Both the position numbers and the translations under genes were made by a program. The notes beneath the pieces are model-generated. The model was given only the letters and a program-made list of their open reading frames with translations. It was not told the DNA's origin and did not search any database. A stretch of DNA of 5,060 nucleotides. Source: Gammaproteobacteria bacterium UBA7376 (lineage in GTDB: Bacteria; Pseudomonadota; Gammaproteobacteria; Pseudomonadales; Azotimanducaceae). The stretch covers positions 6,191-11,250 of the forward strand of contig DKNY01000058.1 of assembly GCA_002470275.1 (NCBI GenBank). The letters run 5' to 3'. Of the stretch, positions 1,627-2,751 are shown piece by piece; the first letter of the stretch is position 1; every line of letters starts with the position of its first letter.

Positions 1627-2751
1627 TCACTCGCTTGGGTGGGAGTGTTGAGCACTGACAAAGGCGTCAAGGTTTAGGTCTTTGCGAATCTGCTTGCCCA
1701 TCTCCGAACCCATATCATCATAGGGTATTCCAGTAGCGTCAGCGATCCTCACCATACGCTGAAAATTTGCGGCAACGCCGGCGGCATCCACCAAAACCTC
1801 AGGACCTGCGGCCTCCATTAGGGTTTGACGGGCCACCCCCAGGGCCGGCCCATCGCGTTGTGCCAGGCTCTCGGCAAACCGCATCAGTTCAGCGCCAAGG
1901 GGCATCGCCACATTGGCCGATGCTGGGTCCCCGGCAAGAGCCTGGATATCGATATCTTTGTTGGAGATCTTGGCGCTCACACGGAGCATGGCCGCATGGG
2001 CATTGGTTCAGTAAAAACACTCGTTAACGGCAGAGACACGGCCAGCGATGAGTTCCATTTGCATTCGATGAAGGGATCGTCCTCGGAAGGCTCCGTAGTG
2101 GCCCATGTCCGTCAGGGCGAGATATTGCACAGCCGCCACGCTCCGCCAGTCGCGCAGGGCGTTGGGCACCAGGCTCAGCGCCCGTACCACGTTGGCCGTT
2201 TTCCCCAGCGGCCAGAGATCGCGCTCTTCACCCAGGGCGCCTTCCGGCGGCACGGTGGGCACGAATCCGATGTCGTGGCTCAGGATGCTCGGGCGATAGC
2301 GGCTTGGCTCACCGTCGAGGGGATGGGGTAGGGGTTCCAGCGGCATATCCAGGGCTCGATGAAACTCGTCAATGCTGAACACGGTGACCACGATACCCAC
2401 CAGCTCCACATAGGCCTCCTGGCTCAGGCCGTTTGCGGCGTTGTCCTGAACCCAGGCGCGCGTGATGCGATTTTGGTCGGTGATGATTCGATGAATAGCG
2501 TCCACGGCGCGGGCGGTCAGGTCGGAGGTGTCGGCGTGCCTCTCTGTACCGCCGTAGGGAGAGAGGGCCGTCTTGCGCTCGGCGCAGAGCAGGCAGGCAC
2601 CAGCATGTCGACTTTCATCGGCGATGGCCACCCGCTGATGCCCGGTCCACCAAGTCCCTGGCGCCGCCAACGCGCTCCAAAATTGGCGGTAGGCCGCTGG
2701 GATGTCCTCGCGGACAGGTAGGGTATGTTCGGTATAGTCGAAAGACGTCAC
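1627..2751 (-). CDS. Selenocysteine-containing AhpD-like (carboxymuconolactone decarboxylase/alkylhydroperoxidase-related) protein, Sec248
   Basis: A single 374-residue gene read through an in-frame TGA at 2010..2008. It has a GTG start and a terminal TGA at 1629..1627. The two halves are in the same frame with no other interruption. Around the TGA the protein reads N243-E-C245-F-Y-U248-T-N-A-H252, the AhpD redox motif C-x-x-C-x-x-x-H with Sec replacing the second Cys. Glu233 lies 12 residues before Cys245, the same spacing as Glu118 to Cys130 in mycobacterial AhpD, so the catalytic constellation is complete. The C-terminal part (F-Q-R-M-V-R-I-A-D-A-T-G-I-P, about 339-352) is typical of the two-domain AhpD-like proteins. 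The N-terminal half has a second, degenerate motif C53-L-L-C56, with Lys60 at the usual His position. No signal peptide is seen, so it is probably cytoplasmic. The likely role is thiol/selenol-dependent peroxide reduction or a related redox reaction; the substrate is unknown. It starts 27 nt after the PepSY gene, and GGGGG 7 nt upstream of the GTG is a modest RBS. The alternative, a nonsense mutation or sequencing error, is disfavoured by the SECIS hairpin. Confidence 0.92.
1972..1993 (-). promoter_or_regulatory. Bacterial SECIS element (selenocysteine insertion hairpin)
   Basis: Numbered from the U of UGA as 1, the mRNA folds as follows: GGC (18-20) pairs with GCC (37-39), CAU (21-23) bulges, GCUC (24-27) pairs with GAGC (33-36), and CGUGU (28-32) is the apical loop. 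That gives seven Watson-Crick pairs with no mismatch. The apical loop begins 24 nt after the UGA, inside the published 16-37 nt range, and has G at its second position as the bacterial SECIS consensus requires. The bulged U directly under a 4-bp upper stem resembles the E. coli fdhF element bound by SelB. The hairpin lies within coding sequence. The fold was derived by eye; no energy was computed. Confidence 0.85.
2008..2010 (-). other. Selenocysteine codon (UGA, Sec248)
   Basis: In-frame TGA between Tyr247 and Thr249 of the AhpD-like protein. It occupies the position of the second, catalytic Cys of C-x-x-C-x-x-x-H. Upstream Cys245 and downstream His252 are intact, and reading continues open for 126 codons. 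A SECIS-like hairpin follows at the correct distance. Cys (TGC/TGT) differs from TGA by one base, which fits the usual Cys/Sec exchange in homologues. Confidence 0.92.

Follow-up and report, generated by a model that had tools for sequence, protein, structure and literature searches.

The stretch of DNA considered here (the window) comprises 5,060 nucleotides of contig DKNY01000058.1, positions 6,191 to 11,250, from the genome of Gammaproteobacteria bacterium UBA7376 (assembly GCA_002470275.1). Its minus strand carries a frame of 374 codons at 2751..1627 that, when read through, contains only one internal stop, a TGA. Ordinary calling of open reading frames splits this gene into two pieces of the same frame, 2751..2008 (247 residues, GTG start) and 1989..1627 (120 residues). 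The motif around the TGA is E-C-F-Y-U-T-N-A-H, where U denotes selenocysteine (Sec). The read-through product scores 448.2 bits (curated cut-off 175) against the NCBIfam family NF041238, "AhpD_rel_CFYUT, alkylhydroperoxidase-related (seleno)protein", and the match spans the TGA (residues 13–365 on profile positions 1–356 of 357). The explanation that best covers the observations as a whole, and that we regard as very probable, is an intact NF041238 selenoprotein gene in which TGA is decoded as Sec and whose product has a two-domain, sestrin-like build and a role in peroxide or peroxiredoxin metabolism.

A TGA column shared by the family

In a sample of the order, members scoring over the family cut-off were found in 17 of 390 genomes, at 19 places including the window's own. 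At every one of the 19 the column in C-[FY]-Y-TGA-[TA]-x-x-H is TGA, and each gene has a single TGA inside; the script used for this set accepted only a stop or Cys at the column. When the alignment of the 19 members was run against 84,980 named genomes, 454 relatives emerged; the 80 best were retained, giving 79 loci, four of them places already in the 19-place set (identical around the TGA). Here the script accepted any residue, and the column is again TGA in 79 of 79. No scan pattern covers the TGA: each stops ahead of it or is placed elsewhere, so that the scan did not select for it. The same scan with a single protein as query found no relative, and neither the class-wide sample (369 genomes) nor the phylum-wide sample (398 genomes) contained a member over the cut-off besides the window's own.

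Because the NF041238 match spans the TGA and a stop occupies the same column in every related gene examined, the interrupted frame is not due to chance. The original prediction held that the two open frames are one, broken only by one TGA, that the Cys, the His, and the upstream Glu of the C-F-Y-U-T-N-A-H motif are kept; it also proposed looking in homologues for TGA or Cys at this column. The stated features are borne out: there is no other in-frame stop, and C245, Y247, H252, and Glu233 are invariant in the 19 members.

Some genomes carry two copies of the gene (G643, G440, and that of locus L111), all with TGA; in L111 the two share one orientation and are separated by about 2.5 kb. Among the carriers is a named strain, Candidatus Litorirhabdus singularis IMCC14734 (L159). 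Members also occur at loci labelled Rubrivivax (L101, L109) and Verrucomicrobiales (L161), and these may reflect transfer, or misbinned or mislabelled metagenome contigs.

Forms lacking Sec are scarce. Three database searches, which scored only candidates sharing words with the query, gave 1137, 1057, and 1012 matches; the best 120 of each comprise 303 different proteins (120, then 65 and 118 new ones), the window's own fragment included. Of these, 300 break off precisely after C-[FY]-Y; they are cut at this codon, where TGA is inferred, the entries being protein sequences only. Among the matches listed, two proteins (P0123 and P0124) have Cys and one (P0122) has Val at the Sec column; these three topped the profile search, as expected of full-length proteins. 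In a tree of 87 N-terminal parts, taken from a selection of the listed proteins and the 19 members, P0123 and P0124 group with the Sec-type protein P0187 (99/91 support), although the bootstrap had not settled and the root serves for drawing only. Because the pair sits inside the Sec-type sequences, the Cys forms look derived. According to the relevant passages of a 2026 review (PMC13188914), Sec-to-Cys changes seldom occur, the documented cases being chiefly FdhA and SelD. Further, more distant Cys forms may exist, since only the best 120 matches of each search are listed. The Val protein, a full-length chain of 408 residues from a Pseudomonadota metagenome-assembled genome (MAG), reads MLCVIG for MLRVSA in the segment where the hairpin described below would be encoded.

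The gene is one more member of an already catalogued selenoprotein family, and the core claim is not new: it does not differ from NF041238, having both the CFYUT motif of the family name and the in-frame TGA. A 2005 survey of the Sargasso Sea described, in the portion that concerns us, a "hypothetical protein 1" represented by four CXXU sequences, for which it gave no functional evidence; the corresponding row of its table reads 4, 7, 0, 5, and its text mentions some Cys homologues (PMC1088965). The part of the 2026 review dealing with this protein equates it with NF041238 and tabulates it as a CxxU selenoprotein (PMC13188914). This corrects the original prediction, since the family is already on record. 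The further statement there that such a gene would be missed by annotation stands for the listed database entries, with 300 of 303 stopping at C-[FY]-Y, but not for the NCBI models, where NF041238 exists; P0122 is in fact named "alkylhydroperoxidase-related (seleno)protein", though it has Val at the Sec column. In the open-access literature (5.39 million papers) the motif string "CFYUT" was not found, "NF041238" was found only in PMC13188914, and a sestrin-like fold of the family was not found in print with the terms used. What seems to be new, judged by its absence from the accessible portions of the known descriptions, is the pair of AhpD-like domains, their sestrin-like arrangement, the scarcity of Cys forms in the listed proteins, and the co-occurrence with a peroxiredoxin-like gene.

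The hairpin and the selenocysteine machinery

A predicted bacterial selenocysteine insertion sequence (SECIS) hairpin lies behind the TGA, with a gap of 24 nucleotides between TGA and loop (Table 1). RNAalifold, applied to the 19 sequences with no structure supplied, places a stem at positions 23–27 and 33–37, counted from the T of TGA. Codon constraint, taken as a use of synonymous codons narrower than the average for the family itself among non-identical sequences, was followed over 372 columns in 91 sequences (96 minus five rows identical around the TGA; from the 79 loci, L122, cut by a contig end, and L150, with only 100 open codons before the TGA, were left out). The six most constrained columns are the TGA itself, which is trivial, and codons +8, +9, +10, +11, and +6. 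Leu +8 is CTC in 87 of the 91 sequences, and Ser +11 is AGC or AGT in all of them. The four upper pairs form in 89, and a G stands within the first two loop bases in 90. Pair 27–33 is C-G in 87 sequences, U-A in three, and U-G in one; U occupies 27 in each of the three sequences whose base 33 is A (hypergeometric 3e-5, without correction for kinship).

Formal covariation for the hairpin is thin, and the case is made more strongly by codon constraint. At 19 sequences the shuffle control has no discriminating power. With 90 (L103, which contains an N, was dropped) there are three double-change cells, a number reached in 0 of 500 shuffles, but they concern one pair only, a result matched by 75 of 500 shuffles. 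Two observations speak against the hairpin: single-sequence minimum-energy folds, the window's own included, often pair this stretch otherwise, and the window's own 64 nucleotides behind the TGA fold with a z of −0.35 and a different pairing. A small apical loop with a guanosine is the rule given for bacterial SECIS elements in the pertinent section of the Sargasso Sea survey (PMC1088965). Such a hairpin, close behind the UGA and with G in a small loop, emerges here from conservation across relatives and not from the single-sequence fold.

The source genome (2.58 Mb in 71 contigs, 96.7% complete) encodes the whole decoding apparatus. The genes selA (C24:19913-21211, 511.9 bits), selB (C24:21250-23073, 400.7 bits), and selC, for tRNA-Sec (C24:24590-24678, 72.6 bits, cut-off 47), lie on one contig; selD (C10:31390-32298, 261.1 bits) is on another, within a frame of 728 residues (locus L083). 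All score above their cut-offs, so that each of the four genes the original prediction would have sought is present. Across the order sample selA exceeds its cut-off in 56 of 390 genomes, among them all 17 carriers of the family gene (Fisher 4e-16, kinship not corrected). Outside the window's own taxonomic family the four carriers, which come from four families, all have selA, as against 38 of the 372 genomes there (9e-5). The front part of the 728-residue frame, read by eye, resembles an FAD/NADH oxidoreductase, as in the Ndh-SelD fusion type of which an account is given in PMC2398784. A SAM-I/IV riboswitch (57 bits, cut-off 41.1; L082 7636-7731, contig C24) follows the tRNA-Sec gene at a distance of about 1 kb, farther out than selA and selB.

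The sel genes, the shared TGA column, and the conserved hairpin behind the TGA favor selenocysteine over decay, as the original prediction proposed, and from these sequence comparisons we infer, with near certainty, that TGA is decoded as Sec. A nonsense mutation, whether in a decaying pseudogene or arising as a sequencing error, would explain why conventional calling yields two open frames and why 300 of 303 listed proteins stop at this codon. It is refuted because relatives share the TGA column (19/19 and 79/79); moreover, there is no second in-frame stop, invariant residues are kept behind the TGA, and selA is found in 17 of 17 carriers. The chance that remains to it is negligible. Reassigned or leaky TGA, with some other amino acid inserted without a Sec system, is scarcely more credible. 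Nothing beyond the open frame favors it, both the hairpin and the sel genes argue for Sec, and TGA terminates the gene itself and four of 11 neighbouring genes checked, and therefore still acts as a stop.

Table 1. Coordinates of the selenoprotein gene and its features within the window
Feature	Position	Strand	Remarks
Whole selenoprotein gene	1627..2751	-	GTG start at 2751; TGA stop 1629..1627 (codon 375); 374 residues, Sec at 248
In-frame TGA, predicted selenocysteine U248	2008..2010	-	Codon 248; same column TGA in relatives
Redox motif C245-F-Y247-U248-T-N-A-H252	1996..2019	-	C245, Y247, H252 invariant in 19 members
Predicted bacterial SECIS hairpin UGCUC-CGUGU-GAGCG	1974..1988	-	RNAalifold, codon constraint, pair counts; G at loop position 2
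Predicted N-terminal AhpD-like domain (residues 14-138)	2338..2712	-	
N-domain pair C53-L-L-C56	2584..2595	-	Invariant in 19 members and in 50-row alignment
C-terminal AhpD-like domain (residues 186-343), predicted; holds Sec site	1723..2196	-	
Glu233, proton-relay position of AhpD-like enzymes, 12 before C245	2053..2055	-	Invariant in 19

Predicted fold and active site

Structure prediction makes it highly probable that one chain holds two AhpD-like domains, and the "two-domain form" of the original prediction gains from the fact that the N-terminal part alone is predicted as a second such domain. Profile comparison of the two halves for an internal repeat gave no match; the repeat is seen in the predicted folds only. 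For the arrangement of the two domains in the model the best solved match is Sestrin2, aligned by VIA-align at the level of the ends of the aligned ranges. Sestrins were absent from the rows of the N-domain search and from the 50 Foldseek rows listed for the whole model, and no sestrin family occurs among the Pfam matches of the 19 members up to E 10, a search in which distant relatives may be missed.

Pfam PF02627 (CMD) matches residues 215-268 with 25.5 bits (gathering cut-off 23) and is matched by 19 of 19 members at E up to 10; the cut-offs of the TIGR00778 core domain (24.7 vs 27.8 bits) and of TIGR01926 (41.3 vs 81.8 bits) are not reached. In the Ralstonia eutropha protein YP_296737.1 the relay residues are E74, C86, Y88, C89, and H93 (PMC4674687). 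E233, C245, Y247, and H252 of the window protein have the same spacing, with Sec in place of the second Cys, and all four are invariant in the 19 members. The N-terminal domain has an invariant CxxC, without Glu and His at the AhpD positions. Fourteen profile matches were obtained, to AhpD and peroxidase-related chains such as 6k40, 3c1l, 2oyo, and 2pfx. Relative to enzymes of this type (PF02627, TIGR01926; YP_296737.1, structure 2prr, and the Deinococcus radiodurans protein 6k40), the window protein differs in having Sec for the second Cys, in its fused N-terminal AhpD-like domain, and in scoring below the TIGR01926 cut-off.

Sestrins such as Sestrin2 (5t0n) also have two AhpD-like domains per chain, as is predicted here. 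In Sestrin2, however, the peroxidase is the N-terminal domain, with the single Cys125, and the site has been lost from the C-terminal domain, whereas the window protein has a complete site with Sec in its C-terminal domain and retains CxxC in the N-terminal one. In sestrins the helix-turn-helix of the C-terminal domain is replaced by a DDYDY hinge, according to the section of PMC11429811 that treats it. In all 19 members the C-terminal domain retains C-[FY]-Y-U together with the His and has no such hinge; by that mark the window protein is not a sestrin. Another parallel is offered by the bacterial fused AhpD dimers presented in the same source as sestrin analogues, namely proteins of C. ureicelerivorans and Comamonas aquatica, and YciW (PMC11429811). 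These too have two AhpD-like domains per chain, and in the first two the C-terminal domain keeps two cysteines, as in the window protein. In their description these are Cys proteins, and cysteines are absent from the N-terminal domain of either of the first two; no selenoprotein is named among them in the passages concerned. The comparison is one of descriptions only.

A possible peroxiredoxin-like partner and a proposed function

The flanking set comprises 98 loci and 1.21 Mb, in which four pairs are the same place and L142 and L143 are identical around the TGA. No operon context emerged from these loci, the commonest neighbor family occurring in only 11 of 98. Two kinds of company are nevertheless seen. 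In five loci (L135, L149, L151, L153, L174) the gene has selA and selB no more than about 1 kb away, against about 0.35 loci expected by chance (3.5 Mb genomes assumed; Poisson 3e-5); L135, L149, and L153 share one arrangement and may represent one event. A SelD-like gene (30-31% identity) is found within 1.5 kb in two loci, L128 and L151. In another set of five (L085, L128, L141, L151, L173) a peroxiredoxin-like gene with W-TGA-P-x-C lies near the gene. At L151, from a Woeseiaceae MAG (OFTM117), the genes for SelA, SelB, a UxxC peroxiredoxin-like protein, the AhpD-like selenoprotein, and a SelD-like protein occur within 8 kb (1722-9493). In the window itself, the neighbors between 59 and 4984 are all read from the minus strand and encode PhoX (PF05787), a PepSY_TM protein, and an amidase; none of these is among the 22 neighbor families listed for the relatives' loci.

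At the level of whole genomes, a peroxiredoxin-like match with one TGA inside is present in 16 of the 17 carriers, as against 10 of the remaining 39 selA genomes (Fisher 1.7e-6); for most of these the count takes the TGA anywhere in the match, and some matches are distant (29-31% identity). The remaining carrier, G379, is 81% complete, and five more of the 39 other genomes have a peroxiredoxin-like match without a stop. Outside the window's own family the figures are 3 of 4 versus 7 of 34 (p 0.048). Because a UxxC peroxiredoxin-like gene co-occurs with and sometimes adjoins the family gene, a pairing resembling that of AhpC and AhpD is suggested. The source genome has such a second selenoprotein gene, with W-TGA-P-F-C, at C20:96845-97276 (L182). 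Read by eye, the stretch behind its TGA could pair as CAGUU-CGUGA-AACUG, the first four loop bases being those of the window gene; the minimum-energy fold pairs that stretch otherwise.

The most likely role of the protein, at about even odds, is that of a selenol/thiol alkylhydroperoxidase or of an enzyme that reduces a peroxiredoxin-like partner. A scheme may be inferred for its fold, chemistry, partner, and the role of the N-terminal CxxC. SelB charged with Sec-tRNA would engage the hairpin and insert Sec at position 248, with SelA, SelB, tRNA-Sec, and SelD supplied by the same genome. Sec248, activated by the Glu/His relay (the set Glu233, Tyr247, and His252), would attack an alkyl hydroperoxide or the oxidized partner, and Sec248 and Cys245 would cycle between selenol/thiol and selenenylsulfide. 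From the mirror position in the pseudo-dimer, the N-terminal CxxC could take electrons from a donor of the thioredoxin or lipoamide type and hand them on. A link between AhpD and lipoamide is known from the Mycobacterium tuberculosis system.

Alternative roles can be envisaged for the same gene. One is a regulated switch, in which low selenium yields mainly a functional 247-residue product with the CxxC domain and selenium yields the two-domain enzyme. A stable short product is possible, since it would contain the whole predicted N-terminal domain along with the invariant CxxC. Truncation at residue 247, however, falls in the motif of the C-terminal domain and leaves about 60 residues of a half-built domain, and there is no evidence that such a switch is used; we consider it improbable. 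Equally hard to favor is a reductive dehalogenase, or other selenol chemistry in the same fold, on the pattern of the debrominase Bmp8. The profile matches are AhpD and peroxidase-related chains, with Bmp8 absent among the 14, and identity is 20-24% to 6k40, 2oyo, 2prr, 3c1l, and 2pfx, as against 11-12% to Bmp8. The Glu/Tyr/His relay is complete, and the co-occurring gene is peroxiredoxin-like.

A bolder version of the peroxide/peroxiredoxin reading can be put forward only tentatively, and we think it rather less likely to be right than wrong. The protein would be a selenoenzyme of sestrin architecture, a covalent AhpD pseudo-dimer whose N-terminal CxxC feeds a C-terminal CxxU peroxidase, and with the Sec peroxiredoxin it would form an all-selenium system of the AhpC/AhpD type. 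The family would depend almost totally on Sec, and its Cys members would stem from replacement of Sec by Cys, opposite to the course usually taken in bacteria.

As a member of its family the window gene is ordinary; it is the Sec dependence of the family, its predicted fold, and its gene company that are unusual. The predicted sestrin-like arrangement would represent a bacterial fused AhpD dimer with redox-type sites in both halves. A family that is hardly able to do without Sec lends itself directly to the question of why Sec is needed.
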